64,000 bases of DNA. Source: Cliona cf. orientalis. Its lineage: Eukaryota > Porifera > Demospongiae > Clionaida > Clionaidae. Below are positions 683 through 62,610 of this stretch, piece by piece (position 1 is the stretch's first letter; every line of letters begins with the position of its first letter). The notes beneath the pieces are model-generated. The model was not told the DNA's origin. It did no database searches and saw only the letters and a list, made by a program, of their open reading frames with translations. The stretch is taken from positions 8,914,135 through 8,978,134 of the forward strand of contig OZ005692.1 of the NCBI GenBank assembly GCA_963930775.1, read 5' to 3'. The position numbers and the translations under genes are program-made.

Positions 683-14690
<14,008 letters not shown>

Positions 14691-26293: not shown

Positions 26294-29200
26294 TTATGAG
26301 ATGGAAAACACAATATTTAGATCACCAGCGATTTCGGACAAGTAAGCTTCTTCTAGAGCCTTGATTACAGTGTTCCAAGTGGTGGGAGTTCGACCTTTGC
26401 CCTCAAGCCATTCGATAAAGACAGCTTGACAAGCCTTGATGGTTTGTTGGTGGTAGTCTTCTCTTATGCGACTGATATCATGGCTCTCGAAATGCAATCT
26501 GGTAGCAACTGATACCCATTTGGCTGCTGCCCGCTCGATGACTCTCACGGTCTTCCCATTACCCTCAATGAGATCAAGATGGTGGAGTTTAGGCCAGGAA
26601 GAAACAGTGGGAATATCTGCATTACGTTTGTATAAAAGAAAGAAGAAGTAGGTACATAAAATTATTCCAAAGACTTAGTTAAAGTATGACAAAGGTAGCT
26701 TTTACCTGACACACTGCTAGGTGAATCTGATGAAGTAGCTTGGGCTTTGGGTGGTAAAACTACATTCTGTAGAGGAAAGAAAATGACTATTATACTACTG
26801 TAACAATGCAGACAACACCTAATATTATACGTATTTGGCCTATGAAACCTCAAACTCAATGCGATCAAAGAAATGACCTACCTCATCAAACCAGACCATG
26901 TGTCCATCAGGGAGATCAGGATAAAGTTTTCCTGTCAGCTGACAGGTCATAGTGCAGGGCTCTCCCTTGTGGGAGAAGTTGATGGTGGCAGAGTGTGACT
27001 GGTCGTGTGGAGGTGGCTCAGGGCAGGCAAAGGCAAGGGAATGAGATGCTCTCTGAGTGTAGTGGAGTGTTTCAGTGACGCTACGAATGCTGCTTTCAAT
27101 TTCACATCGTACATCGCAGCATACCTGACCGAGAGGCACTTTTCGATTGTGATCAGTGGTTGAACTCAGAGAGATTTTGATGTACGTTGGAGAAAGCGAA
27201 AATTGAAACGAGTCATACGGCCCAATGGAGAGGCAAATTTGGTCTCGATAGATCCTGTCTTCCTTCAGCTTACAATCTAGCTGTGAGATTTTCTGTTGCT
27301 TGAGCAGATTGACAAGAAGTGCTCCAAACATTCCCTTTGGGCAGAAGCCACTCCCAAACACTATCCTAATGGAAGGGATAATTTCCTCCAACTGTGAGTC
27401 TGGAGGAAGCTCAGCGTGAGACAGAGCAACAGGAGCAAAATACTTGACAAAAACGCCGTTCTCTTCAATTGGAGCAATAACGTGAAGATGCTTTAGAGCA
27501 ATGGCTAACTGGTCACCAGTTAGGGTGTCTGAATCTGAGGTCAGGTATTTGCTGAACACATCAGCGGAAAAGATGCCCAACTTCATAAATTCTTCACACT
27601 TCATGGGACCAACCGCATCAAACGTGAATGTTTGAATGATCAGCTCTGTCACCTTGTCAAAGATGTACTGTGGCTCCTTGATGACCACATCCTGGAGCTC
27701 AGGAACTTCCTGAAAGTGGCGTACGATACCAACATTGTGATGAAGGAACCAGAGAGCATCATCCAATTCACCACGATCTTTAATGCCACATTCATTTGCT
27801 ACTTGCATGCAATCTTCGATGCTGAGCACTCTGCCTGGTAGGTGGCGTAGTGTGACTGCAAACAACATCCATGTGTGCGGCGTTCGAATTTTGTAATCGT
27901 CAGACTGCAAACCAAGCTGTTCAACAGCATCCCTCACTTGTTGAATATCCTTGTCATCATCAGAAGTATTGTCGAGAGCAAATAACATTCGTTTTTCGGA
28001 GCAGAAAACGATCATTTCTTCCTTGTATGCATTAGTGCTCTTGACAATTTCTTGTAGCTCTTGGTCGATCTTTTGGAGCTCTTGCTCTGACCCTAGTTTA
28101 TCCTTGTGGGTAGCAATGAAAAGCACTTTGGGAGTGACTGGTTTCCCATCTTCTAGCTTAATATAACTCCTAGTCGATGCTATGCTGGCCAAAGAGGAAA
28201 GCAGGATCTCTTTTGTTGTGCAACTGGCTTCAAATGGGATAATAGACCTCCCGCTAGGATGTTGGTACTCAACTGGAATCTTCTCATTCAAGCCTTTGTG
28301 GAGAGGGAATGTGAGGAAATAGACTGAGGGACCTGAAACAAGAACTGGCAGACTCTCCTGGAATTCTGGCTGTCCACCTGCATCAGAGATATACAGTGTG
28401 AACTGCAAAATTCGTCCTTGTTGTTTGACAATTGCAGACTTTTGTAGTGCGAACCCCAAAATTTCCATTGGGTCACTTGAAGCAGTGATGCTCTCCTCCA
28501 GAGGGGTATGCTCTATGCCAGTACTACGAGGAACAATATCCACAGCATTCGATTTCTGTACGAACCTTTTTTTCGCCTTGCGTATGATCCTTTGAATCAC
28601 ATTTGGAATGGGAGCAGTAGCTTGAGATTTCATTATCTGTTTCACTAGCTTTCTACTTGCCACACTACTCTCACAATCCTGAGTAAAGTGAGTTGTGACA
28701 TCTTCGACAACTATAGCTGCTTCCTCACTTAGATCTGTTACTTCGTTCCAGATTGACGGAGACAGAAGCTGCACTGTGGTTTTCTCTATGTCCTCTATTT
28801 CCACACGGGTCACCTCCTCAGCCACTCCAGTGCTGGGCTGCTCTAGTATTGGTTGCAGGCCCTCTATTTCCACACGGGTCACCTCCTCAGCCACTCCAGT
28901 GCTGGGCTGCTCCAGGCTTGGCTTTTGGCCTGTCAAGCGTTTCTTTGTGGACGTCTTTCCCGATCGTGGAAGTCCAAAGAATACTCCTTGCATTATGATT
29001 TGATCGACAGCTCCCTTTTCTCTGATGGCTCGGCGACAAGCTTCCACTTTTTCATGAGTAGGTACTGTGTATGCTGAAAATTTAATATTAGCGATTGAAA
29101 ATGAATCCTTTGTTGTGTTCCTGGTACTTATCTATGCTGATGATTCAAAAGCATTCCATGCAGAATTGTAATATTATACAAGTATTAAAATTTAGTCGCA

Positions 29201-32200
29201 GGAATGGATAGTTGAGCCAGCAGCATATAATTCAGTAATAATAGTAACTATCATAAACTCTGGTTATTAAGCGCACCTCGCCATTAAGCGCATGCTCTCG
29301 TCTTGTCATAAGCTATTGTTTATTAAGTGCATGCGCTTAATAGGCGTGGCGTTCTATGAATATGACCTTGACTGGCTGGAAAGTATGTGGAATCCAGATA
29401 TCTTTGGAGAAATGATGGCCCCGAATAACGCTGTCATGTAAGAAGATCGAGTTTCAGACAAATCGCCAGCACTCATCATCTTGAGTGGCAGCTGTAAACG
29501 CTAAAGTACTTGATCGATTGAGCCAGCTAGCTAGCATGATGGATGCGAGGCTTGATCGATCGATTGAGCCTCGCATCCATCACGTTCCCAAACGTTTGTG
29601 GACGTGGTTATGTGCCATATAAGCGCATATCCTTTATTAAGCGCATACTGTCTGTCGTGACTTAGCACAGTGAAGTAAAACTTTTCATTAATACTTTTTA
29701 ATTGTCGACAATATTGCAATGCACACATATATATAGATTCACAAAAACCACAAAACAGGATACACAAAATAACCACGAACATTACACTTCCTTCCCTCTT
29801 AAGATAATAATTACACAAACCAAAAAATGAGGAAAGCATGTACATGTGTATGCATGAAGTTTGAATAAGCATGAAGTGATACAACCAGAAAATGACTCAA
29901 GTCCAGGTAGGTCCAAATCTCTCTACAGGAACACGGTTACGCTTTGGATAGGATTTCTCACGAGTAGGATTTACTCTCACTGCATCTGGGTTAGTTGGAA
30001 TAGGATCAGGTGATGCAGGCTCTGAATTCGTGTTCTCAGTTGGCATAGTCTCAGAAGCAGGACTAGCAGTAGAAGATTCTGTATTAGCAGATGTAGTCTC
30101 TGGTGAAAATGGTGGAATGACAATATCTGGAATATCAGGCTCACGATGAGAGTCCTGAGATACTTCCACTGAACGTTTGCGAACTTGATCTTGATGACAA
30201 CGTCTAGTTTTACCATTAGCAAGTCTCACTCTGTAGGAAACAAGACCAGTTTTCTGTTCAACAGTACCTGGCAACCATTTGTCTCCATGATGGTAATTTC
30301 TCACGAAAACATCATCTCCAGCTTCAAAGTTTCTCTCTCTGGATCTAAGATCATGTTTCTCTTTCTGTTTCATCTGATTCCTCTCTACTCTCTCAGCAGT
30401 ATTGGGTTTCAAGAGATCCAGTCGTGATCTAGGACGGTGTCCCAACAATAGTTCACTCGGAGAGATTCCAGTAGTGGATTGTGGAGTGAGGCGGTAGGTT
30501 AGAAGAACTTGAGCAAGGCGAGTACGCATAGTACCATGAGTGATCTTCCTCAATCCTTTCTTGACTGTCTGTACAGCGCGCTCAGCAAGTCCATTGGAGG
30601 CAGGATGATAGGGTGCTGAGGTTAGATGCTTGATGCCATTACTTTTGAAAAATGCTTCGATTTCTGCGCTGACAAAACACGTACCATTATCAGTAACAAC
30701 TGTTTCAGGAATTCCAAACTGTGCGAATATCGTTCTCAGTTCCTCAATCACGGCGGTAGAAGTAGCATTCGGAGTGCAAATAGCCTCAATCCATTTGGAA
30801 TGAGCATCGACCATGACAAGTATCATCTTTCCTTGTACCGGTCCGGCGTAATCGAGGTGTAAGCGTGCCCACGGCCTAGTAGGCCAACTCCATGGGGCAA
30901 CTGACGGTGTTGATTGGTGCAATTGACAAGCAGAACATTGTTGGACAGTTCGTTCGATATCCTTCGTGATACCAGGCCACCATACATACATCCTAGAGAG
31001 TCCCTTCATTCGTGTGACACCAGGATGACCTTCATGAAGCTCAGTGAGTACAGCATATCGGCAGGCATGAGGAACAATGACCCTAGTACCCCACAGTAGA
31101 CAACCTTCGTAAATTGAGAGCTCCGCTTTCTTCTCGAAAAATGGGGCAAGCTTGTCCGGATCTGGACATACACTAGGCCATCCCTGCTGCACAAACTGAA
31201 CAATTGGAACAAGCTGTGGATCCTTTCGAGTGCACTCTTTGATTTGGTGAGCAGTAACAGGAGAATTATCAAGGTGATCCACTAGCAATACAATCTCCGG
31301 CGGTGGCTGCTTAACAGACGGTTGAACGGGTAAGGGAAGGCGACTCAACGCATCGGCATTTGCGTGAGCGGTTGTATTTCGGAATTTCAACTTGTATTCG
31401 AACATCGATAGGTACAGTGACCAACGTCGGATTCTCGCTGATGCTTGCGGTGAAGTAGGCTTCTGGCTATCAAGGAGGCCCAGCAGCGGCTTGTGGTCCG
31501 TGATTAGAGTGAACGAATGACCAAACAAGTATGAATAAAACCGCTTGATTCCAAACACTAGTGAAAGGCCCTCCTTCTCGAGCTGTGAATAATTTCGCTC
31601 GGCGGAATTCAAGGTACGGGAGGCGTACCCAATCGGCTTCTCTGAACCGTCTGGCATTCGGTGAGCCAGAACTGCGCCAATGCCATAAGCAGACGCATCG
31701 CAGGCCAGAAGTAACGGAAGTTTCGAGTCGTAATGAACGAGTAATTGCGAGGACGTGAGTAACTCCTTCGATTCGTTGAACGCTTTGTCTTGTGCAGATG
31801 TCCATTCCCACGTTTCTTTCTTGCTTAGAAGCTTGTAGAGCGGTGCTAGTCGAGTCGATAAGTTCGGCAAGAATTTCCCGTAATAAGTAAGCAATCCGAG
31901 GTAGGACTTCAGCTCAGTAACATTATTGGGAGTAGGGGCTTGGCGGATAGCTTCAACTTTCTCAGGGAGCGGATGTAGACCCTCTGAGTCAATCACATGA
32001 CCAAGGTAAGGTACAGACGGTACCATAAATTTGCATTTTTGTTTCTTTACCTTCAACTCAGCCTTGGCCAACCGTTTGAAAACTTCCTCCAAGCTCTTCA
32101 AGTGCTCAGCCTCGGTCTCGGAATGGATCAAAATATCATCGATATACACGGTAACATGCGGAATACCCTGCAACACTGCTCCATGGCTTTCTGAAATATT

Positions 32201-35200
32201 CCAGGGGCAGAAGAGATACCGTATGGCAGGCGTGTGTAGCGGAAGAGGCCCTTGTGGGTGCTGATGACCACGTACTTGCTTGAGTCCTCCTCCAACTTGA
32301 GCTGCAGGTACGCCTGGCTCAGGTGTAGCTTGGTGAATAATTTCCCTTGCTTAAGTGTAGCAAAAATATCCTCTGTCTTAGGTATGGGGTAACGGTTCAG
32401 CTTGGACACGGGGTTAATCGTCATTCGAAAATCTCCACAAATACGTACACTCTTACGGTCACTCTTCATCACTGCAACGATAGGAGCTGCCCAGTCGGAG
32501 TAGTCAACTGGCTCCAGTGTTCCTTCAGCCACTAGTCTGTCCAGCTCCTCCTCGACCTTCTCTCGCATCGCATAGGGAACTGTGCGGGCTTTGCAGAAGC
32601 GGGGTGTAGCACCTGGATCCATCTCAATCTTTGCCTCGTAATCTTTGAAAGTTCCAAGGCGTTCCTGAAAAAGCTCATCATACTGGGTCAGTAAATCATG
32701 CAACTGGGGGCTCTGCATGTAGTGGATCTTATCCCAATTCAATTTAATTTTAGTCAGCCAATTTCTTCCCAGAAGGGTAGGCCCATCTCCCTTGACAACC
32801 ACCAAAGGTAGTATAGCTGTCTGACCTTGGTAAACAACTTGTACATCTGTGCTACCCACCACTGTAATAGGCTCCTTTGAGTAGGTCTGCAACCTGATAG
32901 TGGATGTACTTAGGCTCCTCCCCGGCCACAACTTGTGGTACCTGTTCTCAGAGATTATGGAAACACAGGCACCTGTATCTATCTCCATGGAGATGGAGAC
33001 CTTATCTACTTCAACTTGTACCTTTATGGGAGGTGTGCGGCCATCTCGTCTTTGTCCAATAGTCAGGATTGGCTGCATGGAGTCATCTGTGTCCGAATCG
33101 TACTCCTCGTCTAGCTGGCGAACAGGTTGTGAAGTAGTTCTCTTAGTCGACTTTCCTTGGGGTGCAGGTTGGGGTTGAGATTTGCTCTTGCAGACTCTAG
33201 CTAGGTGTCCCTTCTTTTTGCATTTGTGACACACACTGTCTCGGAATCTGCACACAGTAGCCAAATGGCCTGGCTTGCCACAGCGGTGACAAATCACTCG
33301 AGCTCCACCCTCTGCTGTGCTGGCTCTTTTCCCTGCTACCTTGTGCACTGGCTCTGACTTGACATGTACCCCTGTGCTGCTTCCAGAGGTTGACTCAGCT
33401 TTGCTGGGTGATTGCATCTCTTTCAGATTCTTAGTAGCCGTTTCGAATCCTTTCGCTATCGACACAGCTTTAGCGTAGGTGAGGTCAGTCTCCTGTAGTA
33501 GCTTCTTTTGAATCGGCTCGTCGTTTATTCCCCAGACGATTCGATCTCTGAGCATTTTGTTCAGTGTCTCGCCGTAGTTACAGTGCTGTGCAAGACGACG
33601 CAGCTCCGCTACGTAAGCGGCTACAGATTCTCCAGCCTGTCTCGACCTGGAGTTGAAGCGAAAACGCTGCATGACCTCGGAAGGTGTCGGACTGTAGTGC
33701 TCGGTAAGTTTTGCAACCAGCTCGTCGTACTTCTTTTCTTTTGGCTTCGCAGGAGCAAGGAGGCTTCTCAACAGTTTGTAGGGCGCCGGCCCGATGACCG
33801 AGAGGAAAGTAGCCCGTCGCTTGTCCGCTTTCGCGTCTCCAGTGAGATCGTTAGCCTCGAAAAATTGCTCTAGCCTCTCCACGTACTGAGGCCATTCCTC
33901 CTGCTCGGGATCATACTGCTCTATCTTTCCCAGCAGTGCCATGAGTTCGAGATCCCGTAACTCGTCGCCAAAATATGTCGTGACTTAGCACAGTGAAGTA
34001 AAACTTTTCATTAATACTTTTTACTTGTCGACAATATTGCAATGCACACATATATATAGATTCACAAAAACCACAAAACAGGATACACAAAATAACCACG
34101 AACATTACACTGTCGTTCCGTTTACCGCTACAAGTGCATGCGCTTATTAACCAGAGTATACGGTATTACACAAAAGCTGGGTAATATCGGCCAAACCCGC
34201 TCCCCACCCCCTCCAACCCTCCCCCCAACACACACACGAGGTACATGTATTATAATAATAATCGATTCGGCTTTGATCAATCATGCTCCAAAAATTGCTA
34301 TTCTTTTAAGCTCAGAGTTCTGCCCGTTACTTCAGCATGTCTGCACAACTAGTCCCACGCGCCAGCCCCTCCTACGCAAAAAGAGAGCTGGTCAAAAGGG
34401 TCGTTCCAAAGTATCTGGCTATAATGCAATAATTGGCCATTCTGGTGTGAGTAAAATGAAAATTAACTGCCACTTCTGTACTGTGTGCACACCGACTACC
34501 CATAATTACATTTCACGAATGTTATGTGACCACACTTCAGTGACCTGATTGGTCTGCAATATACATACCTTGCATGAGGACAAACAAGTGTGACCCTTTT
34601 GACCAAATACTTTCTCGTGCATGCATACATGAAGGGGGCTGGGTACGAGACTAGCACAACAATGCCTATTATTCCAGCATTTTGCAACCCCCCTTAGTAC
34701 ATGTATATGTATACCTTCAAATGAGTAGCCAAATCTAAGGGGCCTTTTCCAAAGTCATTGTGGAAAAATTAACGTCATTATGACGTTAACTTTTTACCCC
34801 CTCCCCCCCCCCCCCCTCTCTTAACGTCACAGCATTTCAGCATAGATTCAATACTGAAACTCTGATTCTGCTCCATTTAGCCTATATACACATTCGGTAT
34901 TCACTTGTATTTTACAATGCTAGCTATGTCTTCATGGATTCATTGCATACCTGTGCTTCTTTAACAGTTTCTTGCTTGCCTGTAGCTAGCTACATGCACA
35001 TTATTAGCTATGTAGTGCTTGACACAGCTGTCACAAAATGCAAATTTTGACACTGCTGGAGGTGTGTCTAGACTTGTTCAACAAGAATGCATAATCACAA
35101 CTAAAGCTAAAATCTGCTGACACTGCAGTTATAAAACGTCATGGACCAAGACCCCCTCCCCCCCTAACGTCATAATGACGTTAATTTTTCCACTAGGACT

Positions 35201-38093
35201 TTGGACAAGCCCCCTAAGTAGGCTAGTAAAATTTGAGCTTATTATTCTAGAATTACATTCAATGCTAGTACCACAAAAATGTGCATAGGTATTAATCCAA
35301 GGTCAAAGCCTATAAGCGACACCATTGTATATTATATGATTGATATGTAAATACATCACCTATTGCACCCTTGCCCATGAAAGGGGTTAAAGCTATGGGT
35401 GCTTGACAATAAAGTGAAGGGCTTCATGGGATAGAGTGTTCACAAGAGGATACTCCAGCAAACATGTAGATACTGTAGCATTCATTTTTCATTGATAACG
35501 GTTGTGATTTGCAATACTGAGGTGCCCAGTGCATGTATACGTAGCAAGAGATTTATAATCGAGGTTGTCTGCAGGGGTGGATCTAGGGGGGGTTGCTGGG
35601 GTTGCAACCCCCCCAAACGATTTTGAGCAGCCCCTCCCACTTATATACAAGGCTTACTATAGCTTGGCACGGTGGTTAGTGGTACACCCTGAACATGGCT
35701 TCAGCAATGAATAATCTAGTGTAGACCACAAGAGTCAGCTGTGGTGCTAGGCGTGGTAAAGCTCTATACCTACAGTGTTATAGTACCTTACTACGTAGGT
35801 CACAGTCACTCTCTGGGGCGTGAGATGATGATTAAAAGTGGGCGTGGCTCATTAAAAGTGGATGTGGCCACAAAATTTTCGCGCGCTTTGCGCGCAATTA
35901 TACCTACAACCCCACCACACTAAAAATCCTAGATCCGCCCCTGGTCTGTCATCTGTCATCATAAAAATCACCATATCTCGAGATCTATGTATCTGAGCAA
36001 CTCAGAAGCATAACAAGTTCAATGAAACTGTCAAAGGTATAATAAAGCCTCATAAACACTGTGTTTTTATTGGTCATGACCTGACCCCATGAGCTTTCTG
36101 CTCATGTGCACAACCTATGGCATAGTATGTAGGTAAAGGTAGTGAATAAAGCACACGCATATGATACTGCTACAGTGTGCAGATGCCTTGTCCATTCGAA
36201 TGCATGTTAAGCTCCATCAACATGATATTATGCATGTTTGATACTTTATCAGCAATATATCACAATTATTATATACTTGAGGCAATTAGTGTGGTATTGT
36301 CCCGCTAAGTATCATCAGTACACAACCACATACCACAAACATGTTTCCCATATAGCTGTTTCAGCACACTGTGATCAGTGAGTCGGCCCCGGTCATTCCT
36401 GTAGAGAGCCCAGGCTACCAGCTTCCAGCTTGGAGCAGGGTGATTCTGCAGCCATTCCTTCAGCATGGACTCTTTCCCTGTCATCACATTTAGCTTGGAC
36501 TGAGGTACACCAAGCCACAAGCCTAGCCCTTCCCAGTCAGTTGCACCTTGCAGAGCCGAGAGTAGATGAGGTACTGTCAGTGTTGAATCTGGACAAAAAA
36601 AAATGTAAACAAAATGATATGAGGGTTACATTAAACAAGACACATACTAGCAAAATTTAAAAATGAATAGGTGATCTTGATAGCTAGCCAAATATAATGA
36701 GACCATTACCGCTATATGCAGCATCAGTGTGTAGACTAAAGTGGGTACAGTACTAGTGAGTTTAGATTCAAGGCTCATAGTTATCCACACTACTATAGAT
36801 CATTGAAGTGGGTCACCTGAACACACCTCACCGGGAGCGCTCATGACCTCACTGAAATAATAATAATATTATTATCATAATAATAATCATAGAGTCGGTA
36901 GACTCTATAAGTAGGGATAGCACGGACACTCCCATATATGTAATACATTACAAACACCCAAATATCTCAAAACATGTAACTTTATGAACTTAAAGTTCAA
37001 AGTGCCAAAATTAGAATCTCCAGCAAATTATCTATCTGAGACCAAGATCATTCATCAAAACAATTGTACATGCCAGAACCAGATATTAAAAAATGGCCAT
37101 TTCTCAATCTTTCATTCTTTCTCATTTCCAGGGCTAATTAAATCAAATGTATATGCCAGAACTAGATGTTCAAAAAAGTGGCCATTTCTCAATCTTTCTT
37201 TCTTTCTCATTTCCAGGGCTAGCTCAAGACTGTCTGGACCGCTCACCTTAGTTTTCATATAAATCCACTCTATTTTGTAGCACGCAGTGCAGTGGCACGC
37301 CAGTTTGGCATTATCTCGACAGTTATGTAATAGGGCGCATTGATAATTGGGTGTGTCTGATACGCCATTTTGTGATATAATGCGCATGCTCGGAATGTGT
37401 TGCCATGGAGAAGTCATGTGACAGTGCCCTGGCCCTACACTGTAAAAAGAGAACTGTCAGTTTGACATAACAGTATGTCATTCTGGTTGCAGGTGAGTGA
37501 ATAAAACGCATCACTTGCAGAGGAGAACCTCATAACAAATTTTTCCTCTTTCATATTGGTTCCCCTACACATTCTCATACCACTGCAGTAATTATCTGAA
37601 TCCATGTGTGTGATTTGTTCACTCACCTGCATCCAGAATGACAAACTACATGTCAAACTGACATTTCCCTTTTTGCAGTGTAGGCGAGCTAGCTACTCAC
37701 TAGCATGTGCAGCAGCGTACTGGATCGATCATGGATATGAAGGCGCAAGGCTCTAGGAGCGGTAAGGCGCTAGGCATAGGCGAGCTACTCACTAGCGTGT
37801 GCAGTGCTAATTCTCCGCTGGATCGATCATAGATATCATACGAAGGCGCAAGGCTCAAGGAGCCGTGGTAACATACAGATCATAGAATTATGCCGAGTAG
37901 CTGCTGCTAACAATAAAATTTAGAACTTGGTTTTCTGCCTAGATGGAAGAGTCTCATCAATTGTTTTTATACTTATTAATAAATGATAATCGAAACTGTA
38001 TAATATTTGGTGATAATTTTTCTCTGATTGCTAGCCAGGTAACAAAATTAATTATTATGTAAGTACATGTCATGTCAGGGTTGCATACAGGAT

Positions 38094-38124
<31 letters not shown>

Positions 38125-40965
38125 GGGCGATCTCACGGACGACTTATGTATGTATATGCGCCGCTGCCATGCGTATATACTAGTAAATAAATCACACAAC
38201 AATGCTGTGATAACAAACGATTGGTTTTTGCTTGTGTATGTCATCATATTATTTGTGCTATATATATTACATGTATATTATTATGGAATCCTGGGGGGGG
38301 GGGGGGGGGGGAGATCCCAGTGCGCCCCCCCCCCCCCCTCTGTATGCAACCCTGCATGTCATCCCAGCACACAGCTTACCCTCCTCCCTTTTGGTGTATC
38401 TTTTTGCTGCCTGTAGTGTTCTTTCCTCACAGCAGTAGTATAAGGATCCAGCTATAACTGCCCAAGAGATCCCCGGGATGAACTGCACTATGTATGCTGA
38501 CAGTGACGCAAGTTGTTGTGACTGGTGCTGCTCTCTGATCTCCTCCTCCTTAGAGTCTGGTACATCAAGGTGGAAACACAGAGTGTAACCACCTCCTGGA
38601 GAGTAGTCATACCAGTTCCTCTCCATCAAGCTAAGGACATCAGCTACATGCTCCACAGTGAGGTTGGGATCTGCATCGGAAAAACATGCCCTTCACTCAC
38701 TGGAGTACACAAAGGTATACTATACCATAAACTACAGTTATCGATGATTGTGGTGATCTTTTTATTGTATTGTGTGTGAAAAGCTTTCTTTACATTATAA
38801 TTAGTGCATGTGCTATATTTGGTGGTTTGAGATGCAATTATTATTATCACTAGACTGCCTAATACACCAGTAATCGTAGTTAATTGAATACAATGTATGA
38901 TCCCAATCTAACATAAGAAATTAGCATTAATTTTTATTATGATAACGTATATATACAATCAGGAGCATATGAGCTGCCCGAAGGGCGGCGAAGGAGCGTC
39001 CGACTGCGTGTCAGATGTGTTAGGCGAAGTTCATTAGCAATGCTTGACCTTATATGGAGTGGCCAGCTGCAGGGTATTTCCATTGGTTAAGCTCCATAGT
39101 GATAGCACCGCCCGTAGTACACAGTCTACAACCACACTACAGACTAAGTCAATTAGCTAGTACAGTGTGGCTTGTGCAAAAGTAATCTGCTATGCACCGC
39201 ACCAGCTGCACGTTCCCAATAAGGAAGTGTAGCCTTAAGGACTTCGCCTAACACATACTACAGTCAACCCTATGGTAGTCAGACGCTCCTTCCCCGCCCT
39301 TCGGGCGGCTCATATGCTCCTGATACAATGTATGTATGTATGTATGGAACGACCTTCACCATAAAAGCATACATTTTTTAAAATACAATTATTTTTTTCC
39401 AAACGCTACATTAATGATAATCACAAGGCATAATATCCAACAATTTTAGACTCATCAGAGAGTAATCTCACACCACATGGAATGGTAGCTATGTCTTTGA
39501 TGTGCATACCTGTCACAGGTTCAGAGTAATCCTGTATTCGCTCTGCCTCTTGGTGATCCTCCATATCATGAAGAGCCCTGATGATACACCTCCAGCTGGA
39601 TCTAGGATGTAGGGTGAGGGCATAGAGAATCGCAGCCCTCAGTCGCTGTGAGTCTGTGGAATGTAGGCTCCTTATTTCCAGCATTGTTTCATATGGTATA
39701 TATAACCATCGTCCAATGTCATCCCATCTTTTCTCTATCCCTCTCAGAGCCGCCATGATATTCTCCACAGTGAGGGCTGGTACTAATGGGAAGAGATAAC
39801 ACACTCCATTAAACAATGCTGTGTGTGTACACTATCACTGCAACAATTATGTGCACCACTCTCCTTCAACATGCACTAAGCACTACAGTAAATAAACTAG
39901 AGCTCTATAGAGCACATACCCTGCGCACACATTGCACAATCTATAGATCTGCTTTTGTGTGTATGGGAAACAAATATTGAGTAGAAATGCTGCTTGGTTG
40001 TATCAAGGGCCTATAGACTCCATAAGTCCTTGGTTGTATATTATAGGCTCCTGGTGATAGCAGCCAAAAACCACTGACTCTCTCTCTGCACCAGATCTAG
40101 ACTAGGTAGATATACATTCTGATTCGATGGGGCTTTGCATTCCAGTCTGCAGCAGCCAAACATTATTATGCCACTAGCATTTTTACCAGTGCATAATATT
40201 TGTTATGCGCATCAGCAGAAAGCACAAGGCCTGCATGCATAATGTATTGAGTGGGCACTATTGATAGGCGTGGTTATGAAGGATAACAAAAAGGTACTAT
40301 TTATGATGCTCGTGGACCATGTCCCTTGATTCGAAGCACACTGAAGCCCGTTTTTCGTCAAATGCGACTGATTCATTGTGCTTACGAGTCGCTCAGGTGC
40401 CTAGACCTCGAGATATGGTGATATTTGTGCTAACAACAACAGTTACAACTACAATAACGACAACGACAACGACGACATGACCGATTACTTTACCCCTTGC
40501 GCATGCACGCGGGGTAAAAAATCACTATTATGCAACATAGACCTGTATTTAGGATTATTGTATATACCTCCTCTAAAATTTGGCCTTCAAAATATTCAGC
40601 ACCTTCAAAAATAATATTGTAGTCTCTAATTTTCGGCCAAGCTCGTCACATATTAAATGAGAATAGAATGCGCACACCAATGGAATGTTGAATAATGCAT
40701 GATGTGCACCACTCTCCCTCAACATGCACTAAGCACTACTGCTTACAATAACAATCAGTATTGGATTGTATTAAATTTTAGGATTTTATTGGTTGGGGGG
40801 GGGGGGGGGGGGAGGGGGGAGTGGGATAGGGAACAGCTGTTTGTACTTTCCTTGGGGGTAAACCTTTACATATAATGTATACCATAACCAAGAGTGACTC
40901 TCTCTCTCTCTCTGTTAGTCTTCTCCCAGCTTTGACTCACCTTTCTTTCTCCCTCCCTCAGCCAT
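26294..40965 (-). CDS. Multi-Death-domain ROCO-like GTPase, gene A
   Basis: Seven exons (minus): 40965-40941, 39776-39510, 38670-38380, 36588-36334, 29073-26882, 26766-26706, 26616-26294. They give 1137 aa, GT-AG throughout and in phase. After MAEGGRKK come three Death or Death-like domains, one per exon (about residues 9-97, 98-194, 195-279). A GTPase/COR-like block (280-1010) follows, then a linker, then a fourth, clear Death domain (about 1040-1130: AAAKWVSVATRLHFESHDISRI...WNTVIKALEEA). GTPase motifs are P-loop GLPRSGKT (about 313-320), DAGGQPEFQ (about 510-518) and G4 THKD (about 601-604). Roughly 190 residues separate P-loop and DAGGQ, far more than in ordinary Roc domains. Death domains form signalling assemblies by homotypic contact, and ROCO GTPases act as switches; DAPK1 also joins Roc-COR to Death. 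A role in innate immunity or cell death is inference. The intron before the GTPase exon (36333-29074) holds a MITE with a Gypsy element inside. Confidence 0.87.
28793..28929. repeat. Coding 69-bp minisatellite, two units (gene A)
   Basis: Two near-identical 69-bp units, in frame, encode 23 residues each (LEQPSTGVAEEVTRVEIEG plus QPI-type ends). They lie between P-loop and switch II of the gene A GTPase. The period is fixed by CCACACGGGT at 28801 and 28870. Gene B has three units. Confidence 0.93.
29257..34157. mobile_element. MITE split by a later Gypsy insertion
   Basis: The ends are ACTCTGGTTATTAAGCGCA and TGCGCTTATTAACCAGAGT. Without the Gypsy element and one copy of its target duplication the MITE is about 440 bp and non-coding. 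The matching intron of gene B (near 55360) lacks this sequence altogether, so the MITE arrived after the segmental duplication or was lost there. An internal hairpin (GATGGATGCGAGGCT / AGCCTCGCATCCATC) lies at about 29538-29582. Confidence 0.78.
29653..34109 (-). mobile_element. Ty3/Gypsy LTR retrotransposon, minus orientation
   Basis: Short LTRs of 134 bp (29653-29786 and 33976-34109) with TG...CA ends differ at about one position. They are flanked by the 5-bp target duplication CTGTC. TTGGCGACGAG follows the 5' LTR where the primer-binding site is expected. Parts in order on the minus strand are gag with two CCHC zinc knuckles (about 33.9-33.1 kb), aspartic protease (about 33.0-32.7), reverse transcriptase and RNase H (about 32.6-31.3), and integrase with an HHCC zinc finger and DDE core (about 31.1-30.2). 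A Ser/Pro/Thr-rich tail follows. It is nearly whole, with about one interruption of the reading frame. LTR similarity makes it young. It lies inside a MITE in a gene A intron. Confidence 0.93.
34740..35213. mobile_element. MITE with GGGCCTTTTCC ends
   Basis: Inverted ends of about 50 bp run from GGGCCTTTTCCAAAGTCATT at the left to its counterpart ACTTTGGACAAGCCCC at the right. Both contain TAACGTCATAATGACGTTA-like palindromes. CTAAG flanks both sides. The gene B copy reads uninterrupted through AAATCTAAGTAGGC (near 56000), so it is an empty site. Confidence 0.82.
35572..35943. mobile_element. hAT-like MITE (CAGGGGYGGATCTAGG ends)
   Basis: Inverted ends are CAGGGGTGGATCTAGG and CCTAGATCCGCCCCTG. 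GTCTG is found on both sides as at least part of the target duplication. The corresponding gene B intron (near 56580) lacks it. The terminal sequence resembles widespread hAT-type non-autonomous elements; the family is inferred from ends only. Confidence 0.8.
37438..37680. mobile_element. Tc1/mariner-type MITE at a TA target
   Basis: It is a 243-bp element with inverted ends CACTGTAAAAAG and CTTTTTGCAGTG. The arms are about 65 bp and include GTCAGTTTGACAT and CATTCTGG. TA flanks both sides. The gene B copy at about 59163 reads CTGGCCCTAGGCAG, the exact empty site with a single TA. Confidence 0.87.
38076..38354. mobile_element. MITE with CAGGGTTGCATACAG ends
   Basis: Inverted ends CAGGGTTGCATACAG and CTGTATGCAACCCTG enclose two long G tracts and a C tract. 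CATGT is duplicated on both sides. The gene B copy (57959-57970) reads through CATGTCATGTCATCCC without it. It lies 26 bp beyond the end of the second Death exon of gene A. The CAGGG ends and 5-bp duplication match the element at 24346-24715. Confidence 0.87.
38960..39322. mobile_element. hAT-like MITE (CAGGAGCATATGAGC ends)
   Basis: Inverted ends are CAGGAGCATATGAGC and GCTCATATGCTCCTG. They extend inwards through CCCGAAGGGCGG and a GGAGCGTC stretch. ATACAAT flanks both sides. The gene B intron near 58585 lacks the element. It lies in the gene A intron between Death exons 1 and 2. Confidence 0.87.
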
Positions 40966-45774: not shown

Positions 45775-46010
45775 AGCTACTACTTTATGCACACAGCACA
45801 GGCCACCTCCTTGGTTGCACTATATATAGGGAGGGCACTGTAAGCCAGTGTTGCACATGGCTTCAACCAAGTGGATGGACACACCAGCTCCAGCAGCTAC
45901 CTCCAGCTAGGTTGGGGAAGAATTCCGGATTCTCATCAAGACATTCGTACTTGAGGTATACGTAACCCTGCTGTCTGTACTCGAACTGATGTACTCCATG
46001 GTGCAGCTGG
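45775..46010 (-). pseudogene. Decayed fragment of the spongin-C4-domain gene
   Basis: About 230 bp match the 3' third of exon 2 of the gene at 23551-24823. The recognisable parts are the Cys-rich end (CAVC...), the HLVEA region and YLKYECLDENPEF. Small insertions and deletions break the frame. There is no counterpart of the signal peptide exon or of the first two thirds of exon 2. It stands in the same position and strand relative to gene B as the intact gene does to gene A, which marks it as a truncated part of the tandem duplication. Confidence 0.85.
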
Positions 46011-46452
46011 TTATGCAAATAGGGGTGGATATCAGAGCAATGTGTCTGCAGCATGCGGCATGCATGCATGACGCTGAGACTAGAAGTGTATCTAGTATAA
46101 TAATATTTATTATACCAGACTCCTTCAGAGATATGTGTAGCACCATGCCATATTATACCATGGCCACATGCTCTGGCTATATATACCATAGCGTCCCGGG
46201 TAAGCAGGTAAATATACATTATTATTAATTTTATAATTTGGCTCGCATGGGCACTTACCCAGCCCAGGGACATAATTTCCATACATTTAATTTGTATAGA
46301 AGCTGCTACAGTGACCCTTTGAAATTTAAATAAGGTACATGGGTGCTACCCTGGAGTGGGTGCTTGCCCTGGAGCCAGGATACTATAATATGGTAATACA
46401 TTCTACAGCATCCAGTAAGTAGAGTCTAGTCTCCTTACTGTAACGTAGCTAC

Positions 46453-51494: not shown

Positions 51495-52303
51495 GCTACC
51501 ACATACGTTTGGTGGCAATAATGTGAGTTAAGAGATAGATCAAGATTTTAGACTAAATAATGACAGATTCTATGGCCTTATACACAAATCAATAGCATGG
51601 AAGGAGCGCAGAGATGAGGCATTAGGGTGAGACACAAATTAGCTACAATAGAAAATATGGACATAACATTAATAGATATTTAATATACATTAGTGTACAG
51701 AATACACAGAGTTAGTCAGGCACAGGTTACATTACTATATATGAATGCAATCTGCTCTCATGCAAATCCGCTTTGATACATTTCAAAATTAGATGAGTAC
51801 CTATAGCTAGCTATGAGGTTTCATGAGCAGTGAAGAGTATCACATGATCTCAGGTTTGAGCATTCCTGACACCACAAACAATGAAACATGTCAAGTTATG
51901 CCAAAACTGCTATCTATCTTGATGAATCAATACTGAATATTACATGAATGCACACAAACAATGGTGAGTACGCTGTGCATGATCGCATGAGCGATCACAT
52001 AAAGCTGTGTAGTATACACCACGTGCTCCATGATAATATTATTATTATTGTAAGTCGCTGTTCAGCGTTCACAATCTCATTTACCAAATTAAACATGAAT
52101 CGTGCGTGCACGTGACATTGTGCAATGTAATATTTTGTGCTTTTGAGACTGTCCGCAACTAACACAGCAATAGTAATACAAAATGGGAAAGTGTGCATTA
52201 TTATAATATGATTAAATCAATAAAAAATATTCTTGCATAGCTAATAGTTTTACGTTAAGATAACTCAAAAGGTAAGATAAACGATTTGTAGATATCCTTA
52301 CAG
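51495..52303. other. Spacer downstream of gene B; no gene seen
   Basis: AT-rich. The part from about 51890 resembles 25590-26290 downstream of gene A, as expected for the second duplicate. No gene or RNA is recognised. Confidence 0.5.
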
Positions 52304-55300
52304 TTATGAGGCAGAAAGCACAATCTTTAATTCGCCAGCGAGTTCGGATAAGTCAGCTTCTTCCAGAGCCTTGATTACAGTGTTCCAAGTGATTGGCTTC
52401 CGACCATTACCCTGAAGCCATTCGTTGAATACTGTTCGACAAGCATCCACGGATTGTTGGGGATAGTCCTTTCTTATGCAACTGATGTCATGGCTCTCAA
52501 AGTGCAAACTGGTAGCAACTGACTCCCACTTGGCTGCTGCTTGCTTTATCACCTTCACGATCTTCCCATTAGAGCCCTCAATACGATTGAAATGACAGAG
52601 TTTAGGCACGGAAGAAGTAGTGGGAAAATCTGTATGTATAAAGGTAGGTACATGCATGCCACATAAAATTTTTTTTAAACACGTACTTAAAGTATGGTAT
52701 AAAGGTAGGAGGTACAAAACTATTCCAAACACTTAGTTATACAAAATTATGGTATAGCTACCTGATACACTGCTAGCTGAATCTGTTGAAGTAGCTTGGG
52801 AAGGACAACTTGCTTTGGGTGGTAAACAAATATTCTGTAGAGAAAAAGAAAATTATTATTAGTATACTACATGTAGTAATTGCAATGATGAATATTTACT
52901 TGTAAGTATGACCAATACACTAATGACCTACCTCATCAAACCAGACCATGTGTCCGTCAGTGAGATCATCGTAAACTTTTCCTGTCAGCTGACAGGTCAT
53001 AGTGCAAGGCTCTCCTTTGTGGGAGTTGATGGTGGCAGAGTGTGACTGGTCGTGTGGAGGTGGCTCAGGGCAGGCAAAGGCAAGGGAATGAGATGCTCTC
53101 TGAGTGTAGTGGAGCCTTTCAGTGACGCTACAAATGCTACTTTCAATTTCATGTCGAACATCACGGCATACTTGACCGAGAGGCACTTTTCGATTGCGAC
53201 CAGTGGTTGAGCTCAGAGCGATTTTAATGTATGTTGGAGAAAGCGAAAACTGAAACGAATCATACGGTCCAATGGAGAGGCAAATCTGGTCTCGATAGAT
53301 CCTGTCTTCCTTCAGCTTGCAGTCATACTGTGAGATTTTCTTTTGCTTGAGCAGATTGACAAGAAGTGCTCCAAACATTCCCTTTGGGCAGAAGCCACTC
53401 CCAAAGACTATCCTGATGGAAGGGATAATTTCCTCTGACTGTGAGTCTGGAGGAAGCTCAGCGTGAGACAGAGCAACGGGAGTAAAATACTTGACAACAG
53501 TGCCATTCTCTTCGATTGGAGCAATGACGTCAAGGTGCTTCAGTAGAATAGCCAATTTGTCACCATGTAGGGTATCAGAATCAGTGGTTATGCATTTATT
53601 GAATACCTCAGAAGAAAAAACACCCAACTTCAAAAACTTTTCATGGTCGAGGGGACCGACGTTATCAAACGTGAAAGTTTGAATAATTAGCTCTGTCACC
53701 TTGTCAAAGATGTACTGTGGTTCCTTGATGACCACATCCCGGAGCTCAGGAACTTCCTGAAAGTGGCGTACAATTCCAACATTGTGATGAAGGAACCAGA
53801 GAGCATCATCCAATTCTTTGCGTTTCTTAATGCCGCATTCTTTGGCTATTTTCATGCAATCTTCGATGCTAAGCACTCTGCCTGGTAAGTGTCGTAGTGT
53901 GATTGCAAACATCATCCATGTATGAGGCGTTTGAATTTTGTAATCGTCAGACTGCAAACCGAGCCGCTCAACAGCATCCCTCACTTGTTGAATATCCTTG
54001 TCATCATCGGAAGTATTGTCGAGAGCAAATACCATTTGTTTTTCAGAACAGAAAACGATCATTTTGTCCTTGTAGGCATCGGTGCTCTTGACAACTCCTT
54101 GTAGCTCTTGGTCGATCTTTTGGAGGTCTTGCTCTGATCCTAGCTTATCTTTGTGGGTGGCAATGAAAAGCACTTTGGGAGTGACTGGTTTCCCATCTTC
54201 TAGCTTAATGTAGCTTCTAGTCGATGCTATGCTGGCCAAAGAGGAAAGCAGGATCTCTTTTGTTGTGCAACTGGCTTCAAATGGGATAATAGACCTCCCG
54301 CTAGGATGTTGGTACTCGACTGGAATCTTCTCATTCAAGCCTTTGTGGAGAGGGAATGTGAGGAAATAGACTGAGGGACCTGAAACAAGAGCTGGCAGAC
54401 TCTCCTGGAATTCTGGCTGTCCACCAGCATCAGAGATATACAGTGTGAACTGTAAAATTCGTCCTTGATGTTTGATAATTGCAGACTTTTGTAGTGCAAA
54501 TCCCAAGATTTCCATTGGGTCACTTGAAGCAGTGATACTCTCCTCCTGAAGGGTACGCTCTAAGTCAGTTCTAGGAGGCACAATATCGACAGCGTTCGAT
54601 TTCTGTACGAACCTTTTCTTTGCCTTGCGTATGATCCTTTGAAACACATTTGGAATGGGAGCAGTAGCTTGAGATTTCATTATCTGTTTCACTAGCTTTC
54701 TACTCGCCACACTACTCTCACGATCCTGAGTAAAGTGAGTTGTGACATCTTCGACAACTATAGCTGCTTCCTCACTTAGATCTGTTACTTCGTTCCAGAT
54801 TGACGGAGACAGAAGCTGCACTGTGGTTTTCTCGATGTCCTCCATTTCCACACGGGTCACCTCCTCTGCTACTCCAGTGCTGGGCTGCTCTAGTATTGGT
54901 TGCTGGCCCTCTATTTCCACACGGGTCACCTCCTCTGCTACTCCAGTGCTGGGCTGCTCTAGTATTGGTTGCTGGCCCTCTATTTCCACACGGGTCACCT
55001 CCTCAGCCACTCCAGTGCTGGGCTGCTCCAGGCCTGGCTTTTCGCCCGTCAAGCGTTTCTTCGTGGACGTCTTTCCCGATCGTGGAAGTCCAAAGAATAT
55101 TCCTTGCATTATGATTTGATCGACAGCTCCCTTTTCTCTGATGGCTCGGCGACAAGCTTCTACTTTTTCATGAATAGGTACTGTGTATGCTAAAAATTTA
55201 ATATAAGCGATAGTAAATGAACCCTTGTTGTGTTCCTGGTAGTTGTCTATGCTGATCATTCAAAAGCATTCCATGCAGAATTATATTATACAAGTATCAA

Positions 55301-58300
55301 AATTTAGTCACAGGGATGGATAGTTGAGCCAGCAGCTAATAATTCAGTAATAATAATAACTACTATGTATTAAAGAGCTCACTAATATCGGTCAAACCTG
55401 CTCCCCACTCCTCCCCCTCCCCCCCCCCCCCCCCCCACTCCACACACACACTTTGAGGGCCAAGGTACATGTACATGTATAAGCGATTAGGTATTGACCA
55501 TTGGCAATTATTATGCTCCAAAATTTAAAATATGCTATTTATTCTGTTCTTTATGCTCAGAGTTCTGCCTATTACTCCATCATGCCTGCACATGCAACAG
55601 TCTTACGTGCCAGGAGCTCCTTTGCAAAAAGAGAGAAAAGGTCTGGTCAAAAGGGTGGTACTAAAGTATCTGACTATAACGCAATAACTGGCAATTCTGG
55701 AGTGCATAAAATAACTAGGTGCCACTTCTGTACCGTGAGCATAGGCTGAGTGGACACGCATAAGTACTGACCACTCAAAATTCACATTCCACTAATATCA
55801 AGTGACCACGCTTCTGCAACCTGATTGGTCTGCAATATACATACATGTACCTCGAGAATAAGGAAGTGTGACCCTTTCGACCAGATACTTTCTCATGCAT
55901 GCATGCGTACATGTATGCATGGGTATGAGACTAGCACAACAATGCCTATTTTATGCCCACCCCTTAAGTATACCTTCAAATGGGTAGCTAAATCTAAGTA
56001 GGCTGGTAAATCTGAGCCTATTATTCTAGAATAATGTTCAATGCTAGTGCCACAAAAATGTTATTCCACGATCAAAGACCATAAGCGACACCACAGTATG
56101 ACACATATATACATGTACATGTGTACATCACCCATTGCACCCTTGCCTATGAAAGGATTAAACTACACAAAAGCTTGAAGGGTTCTTAATAAATAATATA
56201 GCAAAGGGCTTTGTGGGAGAGTGTCTATTAAGAGGATACTCCAGCAAATATGTAGCAGGTGCTGATTATGCACAGAAGGTGGCTGATAGGGTGGCTACCC
56301 ATAGTTAACTATACTGGTCCAAGGGGATGGCTGGTTAATTATGGTGGATGTTTCCATTACAGTACGTTGCATAAAAGAACTGGTGAAGGGGGGTGGCTAG
56401 CCACCCTATCCACCCCCCCCCCCCCCCATATGAGCCCCTGATGTAGACATAGCATTAATTATACCAATTTGTTTTTGCTGATTACTCAGACAAGTATCAG
56501 ACTCATTGACTATTGACAATTGCTGTAATTTGCGATCCTGAGATACCCAACGAGTGCAGCAAGGGATTTATAGTCAGGGTTGTCTATCGTCAGTATAAAA
56601 TTGCCATATCTCAAGTTCTAGGCATCCGAGCAATTCATACGCACAATGAATTCATCGAAATGGTTACAACTTGCTTTATTTTGCTGTAAATTGTTTGGTA
56701 TAGCCTACGAGCATCACAAATCCTTTTTATTGGCCATGCACGACCTGTACCCCCATGGGCTTTCTGCTCATGTGCACAACCTATAGCATAGTACCGTACT
56801 TTTTTTAAAAATTTGGCTCATCATATTATTCAAAAATATTCTCTAATTTTTAGCAAAGGTCATCACGCGTATATGGTATAAACAGGAATCGAATGCATAG
56901 GCAGATAATGTTGTCTAAAATTCAGCGAACCTCAAGCAACATCATAATTTTCATGCCGAATGTTTAGAAGAAATATTATAGTACATAGCTAGGTAAAGGT
57001 AGTCAACAAAGCACATGCATACTGCTACAGCATAGATGCCTTGTCTATTCAAGCATATGAATGCAAGTTCAGCTCCATTAACGTATGTATGTTTGATACC
57101 TTATCAGTAATAGATCACAATTATTGTACAGTATAATACTTGAGGCAATTAGTGTGGTATTGTCCCACTATTATCATCAGTACACAACCACATACCAGAA
57201 ACATGTTTCCCATATAGCTGCTTTAGCACACTGTGTTCAGTGAGTTGGCCATCACCCCACCTATAGAGGGCCCAGGCTACCAGCTTCCAGCTTGGAGCAG
57301 GATGATTCTGCAGCCATTGCTTCAGCATGGACTCTTTTCCTGTCATCACTCCCAGCCTGGACCAACATACATCAAGCCACATGCCTAGCCCCTTCCAGTC
57401 AGCTACACCTTGCAGAGCTGAGAGTAGATGAGGTACTGTCAGTGTTGAATCTGGACAAAACAAATCATAAAGATAAACAAAACAACATGAGGGTTACAAT
57501 AAACAATACACATACTAGCAAAATAAAAAAAATGAATACGTGATCTTGATAGCTAGCCAACTGATGAGACCATTACCGCTATATGCAGCATCAGTGTGTA
57601 GACTAAAGTGGGTACAGTACTAGTGAGTTTAGATTCAAGGCTCATAGTTATCCACACTACTATAGATCATTGAAGTGAGTCACCTGAACACACCTCACCA
57701 GGAGTGCTCCTGACCTCACTGAAATATCGTCTACTATCCAGAGAAGGTTAATTAAGCAATTATTCTGATCATCAGAGCTGTTTGCAATAATACTATACAC
57801 TTGTGTACACAATCCAGGTCAACCCACTGAGTCAGCAACAACAGTACATTAATATATTATGGCACACAACGATAATCAAAACTGTAATATTTGGTGACAT
57901 TTTTGATTAACATCCTCCGATTGCTAGCCAGGTAACGAAATTAATTATTATGTAAGTACATGTCATGTCATCCCAGCACACAGCTTACCCTCCTCCCTTT
58001 TGGTGTATCTTTTTGCTGCCTGGAGTGCTCTTTCCTCACAGCAGTTATATAAGGATCCAGCTATAACCGCCCAGGAGATCCCCGGGATGAACTGCACTAT
58101 GTATGCTGATAGTGACGCAAGTTGTTGTGACTGGTGCTGCCCTCTGATCTCATCCACCTTAGAGTCTGGCACATCAAGGTGGAAACACAGACTGTGACTC
58201 CACCATGGAGAGCTGTCATACCAGTTCGTCTCCAACACGTTAAGGACATCAGCTACATGCTCCACAGTGAGGTTGGGGTCTGCATTGGAAAAACATGCCC

Positions 58301-61300: not shown

Positions 61301-62528
61301 TAGGTGCAGGAATTAACTAACCAGGCAGAAATGCGACGATCAAAGATGATTATCCCCCGTGACCCCCTACGAGAATATTGAATTTCTTGATCCCACATAC
61401 ATGCAGAAGATTCAAATTAAGGATGGATCACCATCAATAGGCACATGATAATTGAGAAAAGCAAGCGTAGGGATGTATAGCGTGTATGATTATCCCTAAT
61501 CTTGTTCATGTACTTTTTGACCCTGCCATCCCTATTTCATCGTTCAATTTATTTAATTTTTTATACTTGTATTAATTATCACAAGACATAATATCCAACA
61601 ACTTTACACTCATTAGAGAGTAATCTTTCACCACATGGAATGGTAGCTATGTCTTTGATGTGCATACCTGTCACAGGTTCAGAGTAATCCTGTATTCGCT
61701 CTGCCACTTGGTGTTCCTCCATCCAATGAAGAACATTGATGACACACCTCCAGCTGGATCTAGGATGTAGGGTGAGAACATAGAGAATCACAGCCCTCAG
61801 TCGATCAGAGTCTGTGGAATGTTGGCTCCCTATTTCCTGCCTTGTTGCATATGGTACATATAACGAATCTCCAATGACATTCCATTTTCCCTCTATCCCT
61901 CTCAGAGCCGCCATGATATTCTCCACAGTGAGGGCTGGTACTAATGGGAAGAGATAACACACTCCATTAAACAATCCTGTGTGTGTACACTATCACTGCA
62001 ATAATTAAAATACCACTCTCCTTCAACATGCACTACACACTACTGCTTGCAATTATTACGCAACACAGAATCGTATTAATTTTAGAATTACTGTACACAT
62101 GCACTTCTAACATTAAATTTTGGCCCTTCAAAATGTTCAGTTCCTTCAAAAATATTATAGTCTCTAGTTTTTGGCAAAGGTCATCGTGCATATATTATCT
62201 TATAAATGGGAATAGAATGCATAGCCAATGGAATGTTGAATAATTATTAACCTCTAAAAATTCGTCACAGCTCAAGCAATATTATTTTCACGCCAAATTT
62301 TTAGATGAAATCAGTAATAAACTATGTGCACCACTCTCCTCAACAAGCACTAAGGAATAAGAATCACTTTTATGGAACACAGTGCTGAATTTAGGATTAT
62401 GTTTGGGGGGGGGGGGGGGGGGGTAGAGGAACAGCTCTCTGTATTTTCTTGGGGCAATATTTATTCATCAAGGGGGTCACAGGGAAATACATGTACATAT
62501 CCCACAGTAGAGAGGTTCTAGCTAGTGA

Positions 62529-62560
<32 letters not shown>

Positions 62561-62610
62561 TAGTCTTCTCCCAGCTTTGACTCACCTTTCTTTCTCCCTC
62601 CCTCAGCCAT
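52304..62610 (-). CDS. Multi-Death-domain ROCO-like GTPase, gene B
   Basis: Seven exons (minus): 62610-62586, 61934-61668, 58279-57989, 57450-57196, 55189-52932, 52834-52762, 52629-52304. They give 1164 aa, GT-AG and in phase, with the same structure as gene A. The order is MAEGGRKK, Death 1, Death 2, Death 3, GTPase/COR-like block, linker, Death 4. GTPase motifs GLPRSGKT, DAGGQPEFQ and THKD are intact. Differences from A include a third 23-residue minisatellite unit after the P-loop, a linker four residues longer, and many substitutions in all Death domains. The GTPase block is much closer to A, apart from a diverged patch at about 53490-53690. The intron before the GTPase exon is about 2.0 kb against 7.3 kb in A. 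As for A, the biochemical role is a Death-domain assembly gated by a ROCO-type GTPase; the pathway is unknown. Its start codon and first exon are identical to those of A. Confidence 0.87.
54840..55050. repeat. Coding 69-bp minisatellite, three units (gene B)
   Basis: Three in-frame 69-bp units (CCACACGGGT at 54848, 54917 and 54986) encode 23-residue repeats between P-loop and switch II of the gene B GTPase. The two left-hand units share CTCTGCTACTCC where the third has CAGCCACTCC. This suggests that one unit duplicated recently. Confidence 0.93.
59696..60067. mobile_element. MITE with ~95-bp inverted arms, copy 1
   Basis: The outer ends ACAAGTAT...ATACTTGT are followed by AAAATTGAAGAATGAAG, then TAGGGATGGCAGG, then AAAGTACACAAACAAGAG, ending near CCCTACGCTTGCTTTT. 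The same sequence returns inverted at 59958-60067. It is non-coding. It lies in the gene B intron between Death exons 1 and 2 and is absent from the matching gene A intron. Confidence 0.82.
61215..61571. mobile_element. MITE with ~80-bp inverted arms, copy 2
   Basis: Same family as 59696-60067. The left arm is TAGGGACGGCAGGGTCAAAA...CATCCCTACGCTGGCTTTTTGAG; the right arm is AAGCAAGCGTAGGGATGTAT...GACCCTGCCATCCCTA. The two copies differ by more than 10 percent and the left outer end looks shortened. It ends about 100 bp before the first Death exon of gene B. Confidence 0.82.

Follow-up and report, generated by a model that had tools for sequence, protein, structure and literature searches.

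The window, by which we mean the whole 64,000-nucleotide stretch of the Cliona cf. orientalis genome analyzed here (C4:8914135-8978134), carries two related genes on its minus strand: gene A (40965 to 26295; 1139 amino acids) and gene B (62610 to 52305; 1166 amino acids). Each was modeled in seven exons from stop-to-stop frames and splice anchors (Table 1). The two proteins are identical at 982 of 1138 aligned residues and share one plan: a start exon encoding MAEGGRKK is followed by three module exons, a 2.2-kb exon for the GTPase, a linker, and the final exon. Exons 2 to 7 start in phases 1-1-1-1-0-1 in both genes, and each N-terminal module is a single symmetric exon with phase 1 introns on either side. 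All exon borders are GT-AG and both reading frames lack internal stops. The module-module-module-ROCO-Death layout given for both genes in a preliminary description of this DNA is thus real, with matching coordinates and open seven-exon models.

Table 1. Exons and tandem units of genes A and B (positions counted from the first letter of the window)
Feature	Position	Strand	Basis
Gene B exon 1, start codon, MAEGGRKK	62586..62610	-	gene model
Gene B exon 2, first N-terminal module, predicted Death fold, variable patches	61668..61940	-	model and fold prediction
Gene B exon 3, second N-terminal module, first-module homologue	57989..58279	-	gene model, profile comparison
Gene B exon 4, third N-terminal module, shorter first-module homologue	57196..57450	-	gene model, profile comparison
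Gene B exon 5, ROCO-like GTPase with COR-A	52932..55189	-	gene model, Pfam
Gene B, 69-bp/23-aa STG unit, three in tandem, last partial	54822..55028	-	exon 5 offsets 161, 230, 299
Gene B exon 6, linker	52762..52834	-	gene model
Gene B exon 7, C-terminal Death domain and stop	52305..52629	-	gene model, Pfam, PDB search
Gene A exon 1, start codon, MAEGGRKK	40941..40965	-	gene model
Gene A exon 2, first N-terminal module	39510..39782	-	gene model
Gene A exon 3, second N-terminal module	38380..38670	-	gene model
Gene A exon 4, third N-terminal module	36334..36588	-	gene model
Gene A exon 5, ROCO-like GTPase with COR-A	26882..29073	-	gene model, Pfam
Gene A, 69-bp unit, two in tandem, last partial	28775..28912	-	exon 5 offsets 161, 230
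Gene A exon 6, linker	26706..26766	-	gene model
Gene A exon 7, C-terminal Death domain and stop	26295..26616	-	gene model, Pfam

Several other features share the window. Five ARF-like GTPase open reading frames, recognized by eye and each in a single frame, stand in tandem on the minus strand (4055-4690, 5812-6465, 7330-7878, 10598-11182, and 11942-12526); their G3 motifs read, in order, DVGGQ, DVGGQ, DVHGG, DVGGG, and DVRGD, and the later copies may be altered switches. The open reading frames of a Ty3-type retroelement, also identified by eye (29653-34124, minus strand), lie in intron 4 of gene A, on the same strand as the gene, and are flanked by direct copies of 149 nt that are 95 percent alike. 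A second Ty3-type element, between the two genes (46451-51421, plus strand), is probably recent, because its 300-nt flanking repeats are 100 percent identical. A cysteine-rich open reading frame (23551-24213, minus strand), which we take to be short-chain-collagen-like, shares YLKYECLDENPEF with a frame at 45863-46345 (minus strand), and the latter looks like its decayed copy.

Further copies in the genome

We searched the genome of origin (216.8 Mb, 149 contigs) exon by exon and then, for the loci, by tblastn. Five places, spread over two chromosomes, have the full order of three modules, ROCO, and Death. They are A, B, C (C4:8684032-8689969), D (C4:8709896-8718028), whose ROCO exon is split over two frames, and E (C8:5361506-5356240). 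The expected acceptor AG is kept in 26 of the 28 rows checked among copies, the exceptions being the inner start of the broken exon of D and exon 2 of E, where an AG stands a few bases further in. Exons of the MAEGGRKK type open copies A to D, and there is a candidate at E; they also occur at three less complete places, F, G, and H. F (C4:8994949-8999924) and G (C4:4743321-4746730) are module triples with no adjacent ROCO among the matches listed, nor any ROCO-sized exon within 7.4 and 6.8 kb downstream in frames judged by eye. H (C3:10110830) has exons 1 and 2, with no close exon 3 or 4 nearby among the matches listed. All 19 N-terminal exons that were read are free of stops; they comprise exon 2 from eight copies, exon 3 from six, and exon 4 from five.

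Since the same exon order is found at five places, the module, ROCO, and Death exons probably belong to one gene, and assigning them to separate genes is less likely. Judged from the genomic sequence, this five-fold recurrence with kept splice borders is far beyond chance, and A and B are members of a larger family whose module exons appear to have moved. The search for further members suggested in the preliminary description yielded three more places with the full order, two triples, and one partial locus. Its term "tandem pair" is too narrow for what is a family, and its reservation that the exons might belong to separate transcripts is made unlikely by the order kept at five places.

Some loci deserve separate mention. 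In copy D (C4:8714689-8718963; L013 and L017) the ROCO frame is broken, and the three module exons and the Death exon are open. Locus L041 (C3:10109330-10112599), inside a cluster of Death-like sequences on chromosome 3, has a start exon together with an exon for the first module, 82 percent like gene B, a sign that exons move between chromosomes. Near one chromosome-3 relative there are two more small Death-like exons; the 9 kb covered there showed no long frame that could be a partner. Genome-wide, the first module has at least 150 matches, and all 150 Death places that were scored, from 1292 first-look candidates, exceeded the cut-off. On C14, between 5.3 and 7.8 Mb, 10 of the 12 main ROCO matches lie in open frames of 1357-3135 amino acids, apparently very long single exons.

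Domains of the encoded proteins

The Pfam scan covered ten exon translations, five per gene. Of the Roc, COR, and Death profiles for which the preliminary description had proposed a search, COR-A exceeded its cut-off in both GTPase exons (36.9 and 43.5 bits against 35.3) and Death did so in the final exon of each gene (25.7 and 34.8 bits, cut-off 22.6); Roc stayed below its cut-off in A (12.4 bits against 27) and was not listed in B. In an alignment of 27 family sequences, A and B among them, COR-A was matched at E <=0.001 in all 27 and Roc in two, most rows containing only a partial GTPase. The P-loop GLPRSGKTS, DAGGQ, and THKD are present on direct reading, and profile comparison gives a match to LRRK2 (E 2e-7), best in the COR part. 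In both genes the Death domain follows COR, as in DAPK, and its best sequence match in the PDB is the Death domain of PIDD (E 1.4e-5). Pfam listed no kinase, ankyrin, NACHT, LRR, ZU5, or UPA domain in the ten exon translations, and NCBIfam gave nothing for the four proteins scanned.

Just past the P-loop lies a 69-bp unit of 23 amino acids with an STG segment. It is present once in E, L014, L015, and L016, twice in A, C, and D, and as three copies in B, with a partial last copy. By its position we take it to be probably switch I, in which case a switch segment is repeated in frame, with a copy number that differs among paralogues.

For the first N-terminal module the structure model predicts a Death fold, with helices at residues 5-11, 19-25, 30-39, 43-57, and 61-75. 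Modules two and three align with it at hhalign probabilities of 96.9 and 97.7 percent, respectively. Their assignment to Death from their own sequence failed: the direct Death profile gave weak matches (3.0 percent for module two and 27.6 percent for module three), PDB sequence searches with either returned no Death row, and the six N-terminal exons of A and B had at most sub-cut-off Pfam matches, to unrelated families. Module three is shorter than module one, and its structure model has a pLDDT of 53.4. We infer from the homology with module one that both share the Death fold. The claim of four Death or Death-like modules combined with a ROCO-like GTPase is therefore supported for the first module, where fold prediction agrees with it, for the GTPase, and for the C-terminal Death domain. 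The two modules in between are homologues of the first that match Death profiles weakly.

Substitution rates

Counted on trees, amino-acid and silent changes numbered 97 and 24 in exon 2 (eight copies), 71 and 26 in exon 3 (six copies), and 54.5 and 22.5 in exon 4 (five copies), against 236.1 and 270.9 in the ROCO exon 5 (four copies, the broken frame of D having been excluded from codon testing) and 60 and 57 in the Death exon 7 (five copies). The ratio differs between exon 2 and exon 5 (Fisher p 9e-12) and between exons 2-4 and exons 5 and 7 taken together (p 5e-16). By these counts the N-terminal modules change much faster than the ROCO-Death part. Pairwise omega among copies spans 0.45 to 5.6 in exon 2, where silent divergence is low in most pairs, 0.19-0.29 in the ROCO exon, and 0.15-0.49 in the last exon. 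Between A and B, dS is 0.046 in exon 2, whereas the ROCO exon has 0.214 and the last exon 0.523; the low value of exon 2 suggests gene conversion, which we consider likely among the copies.

Variable positions of the first module

We compared three groups of module-one copies drawn from the best 30 of at least 150 matches: the A/B family (G1, eight copies) and two subsets from chromosome 3 (G2, ten copies; G3, eight copies). Four of the 30 alignment rows (L054, L056, L057, and L061) come from other genomic places and were kept out, and L062, at 8.45 Mb of C3, was retained in G2, whose other nine copies lie at 9.98-10.34 Mb. Column variability correlates between groups (Spearman 0.36-0.50). When the 15 most variable columns were cross-tested between pairs of groups, pN/pS was 1.59-2.84 in five of six tests and 0.95 in the remaining one (G1 columns in G3), against 0.56-0.69 at other columns. 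At columns picked from the two other groups, and with changes treated as independent in this and the placement tests below, the A/B family shows 51.5 amino-acid and 2.5 silent changes (omega 4.65, p 0.0014), G2 shows 66.5 and 3.5 (omega 4.15, p 0.0028), and G3 shows 45.5 and 7.5 (omega 1.50, p 0.25); the rest of the module has omega 0.53-0.66 in the three groups. Whole-module omega does not support values above 1 (0.95 to 1.19 in the three groups). As counted here, module-one changes converge on shared positions in the three copy groups, and the argument for positive selection comes from two of these groups, in this module.

The mapped positions (module-one residues 20, 21, 24, 25, 27, 30, 34, 37, 47, 68, 69, and 72-75) were transferred to the other modules by hand from profile alignments. 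In module three they take 29.5 of 54.5 amino-acid changes, against a random mean of 8.4 (p 0.0000 in 20000 draws), with omega 1.03. Module two has no excess there (17.5 of 71 changes, p 0.06, omega 0.66), and the last Death domain takes 12 of 60 changes (p 0.09), with omega 0.62 against 0.28 elsewhere. A control Death cluster on C2 (four sequences, compared pairwise) showed no excess, pN/pS being 0.20 at mapped positions and 0.43 elsewhere.

On the predicted fold of module one, the variable patches map to H2 and H3 and to the end of H5. Measured as entropy over the model helices, H2 to H3 (residues 19-39) holds 38-40 percent of the variability of the module and residues 65-78 hold 27-38 percent; H1 and H4 together have 8-18 percent, and residues 58-64, the H4-H5 loop of type IIa, are nearly constant (0-1 percent). 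In the MyD88 assembly, type I contacts run from H1/H4 to H2/H3, type II from H4 and the H4-H5 loop to H6 and the H5-H6 loop, and type III from H3 to the H1-H2 and H3-H4 loops, so that H2/H3 is the Ib face, H3 is IIIa, and the H5-H6 loop is part of IIb (PMC7054835). Transferred to our map, the varying side would correspond to Ib, IIIa, and part of IIb, and the near-constant side to Ia and IIa.

Discussion

Fast-evolving patches clustered in the first module suggest a surface for recognition or for private docking. The explanation we favor, at roughly even chances, is that A and B are lineage-expanded ROCO switch proteins with a variable input, a switch, and a constant output. The input would consist of the three Death-like modules, encoded in tandem by one symmetric exon apiece; through their fast-changing patches (H2, H3, and the end of H5) each paralogue would dock a partner of its own. 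Roc-COR would convert docking into a nucleotide-dependent dimer or conformation change, and the conserved C-terminal Death domain would nucleate one common downstream complex. As its role we hold innate immunity or self/non-self recognition in the cytosol to be likeliest. With these partners, switch, output, and role we infer beyond sequence evolution. The preliminary description had proposed a polymerising signalling hub, which is possible; the substitution pattern points to something more specific, a variable front end with a constant back end. That description mentions neither the existing family, nor the patches, nor the repeat that follows the P-loop.

Variable faces could also be keys that prevent cross-reaction among paralogous Death-Death assemblies, rather than sensors of outsiders. 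The many Death places and first-module matches in this genome would call for such insulation, and the varying helices are, on the predicted fold, assembly faces. Yet insulation of this kind should leave co-varying partner faces, whereas within module one H1 and H4 carry little of the entropy and residues 58-64 almost none, and we hold private channels to be rather improbable. It is a little less probable still that the N-terminal modules are tolerant spacers, whose exposed positions drift neutrally while gene conversion homogenizes the rest. Whole-module omega near 1 in three groups fits relaxed constraint, as do the lack of values significantly above 1 in G3 and in modules two and three, and the conversion suggested by the low silent divergence of exon 2. 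However, two of three groups exceed neutrality at independently picked positions, the other positions stay below 1, and no N-terminal exon has acquired a stop.

The remaining alternatives require no special surface. An ordinary lineage-specific expansion of ROCO-Death proteins, with added adaptor domains and no recognition role, would suit a genome with large ROCO and Death families, and published TRADD-N proteins of Amphimedon carry between one and three Death-like domains N-terminally (PMC8195603). This account leaves the recurrence of variable positions across three groups unexplained, and we consider it unlikely, about as much so as neutral drift. Even the unity of the genes might be questioned, if short Death-only proteins and a ROCO-Death protein were transcribed separately: triples F and G stand without a neighboring ROCO exon in the matches and distances given above, and a retroelement sits within intron 4 of gene A. 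But the order and the phase-compatible borders repeat at five places, one of them on another chromosome, which leaves separate transcripts very improbable.

Death domains are conserved connectors in cell-death and immune complexes. A wider interpretation would make the Death fold a germline-diversified recognition domain in an early-branching animal, with a large superfamily of single-exon modules whose patches vary at fixed sites, carried by several host proteins, including ROCO switches with a constant Death output. We offer it tentatively and regard it as rather doubtful. If true, a fold known as an adaptor would become a variable receptor head. More generally, if selection diversifies the assembly faces in a large family that is coupled to a nucleotide switch, this family would be a candidate system for recognition in an animal lineage that lacks antibodies. 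What most deserves pursuit is the variable-patch pattern, and it is testable, since it predicts an excess of amino-acid polymorphism between individuals at the named positions.

Comparison with known systems

Among the open-licence papers listed in our searches, no title or beginning of an abstract describes Death-domain arrays on ROCO proteins or Death domains with hypervariable positions. The genome paper of a sponge counts 128 DEATH genes, and the word ROCO occurs 0 times in its main text (PMC12909245). ROCO fused to immune adaptors is not new as such, since in Aplysia ROCO domains occur in some TLR and MyD88-like proteins (PMC9334734). The Amphimedon TRADD-N proteins resemble A and B in their one to three N-terminal Death-like domains and their large lineage expansion, but they are built around TRADD-N, with no ROCO named in that account (PMC8195603).

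The ROCO-Death part has its own relatives. DAPK1, from the third group of Roco proteins, also has Roc-COR followed by a Death domain (PMC6320773), whereas the scanned exons of A and B lack a Pfam match to kinase or ankyrin, and both genes carry three Death-like modules in front. PIDD provides the best PDB match of the last domain; in contrast to PIDD, Pfam listed no LRR, ZU5, or UPA in the scanned exons of A and B.

The closest published parallels to a variable front end are prokaryotic, fungal, and brown-algal. Prokaryotic AP-GTPase-COR conflict systems combine a GTPase-COR with a fast-evolving N-terminal part and are predicted to be immune, although they are bacterial, with an LRR front and assorted effectors behind (PMC8195603). 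The het-d and het-e NLRs of Podospora have near-alike repeats with few hypervariable sites under diversifying selection, but these are fungal WD40 repeats on an NLR (PMC12222747). In brown algae, ROCO genes whose LRR exons are in phase and evolve under diversifying selection have been proposed as immune receptors (PMC11378527). Like A and B, they place a ROCO switch behind a modular front of same-phase exons; the front is made of LRRs there and of Death-like modules here, and our variation is known from paralogues rather than from shuffling within a gene. In the sponge family, phase-1 front-end exons come together with selection at cross-chosen columns of module one in two of three groups, and not of modules two and three.
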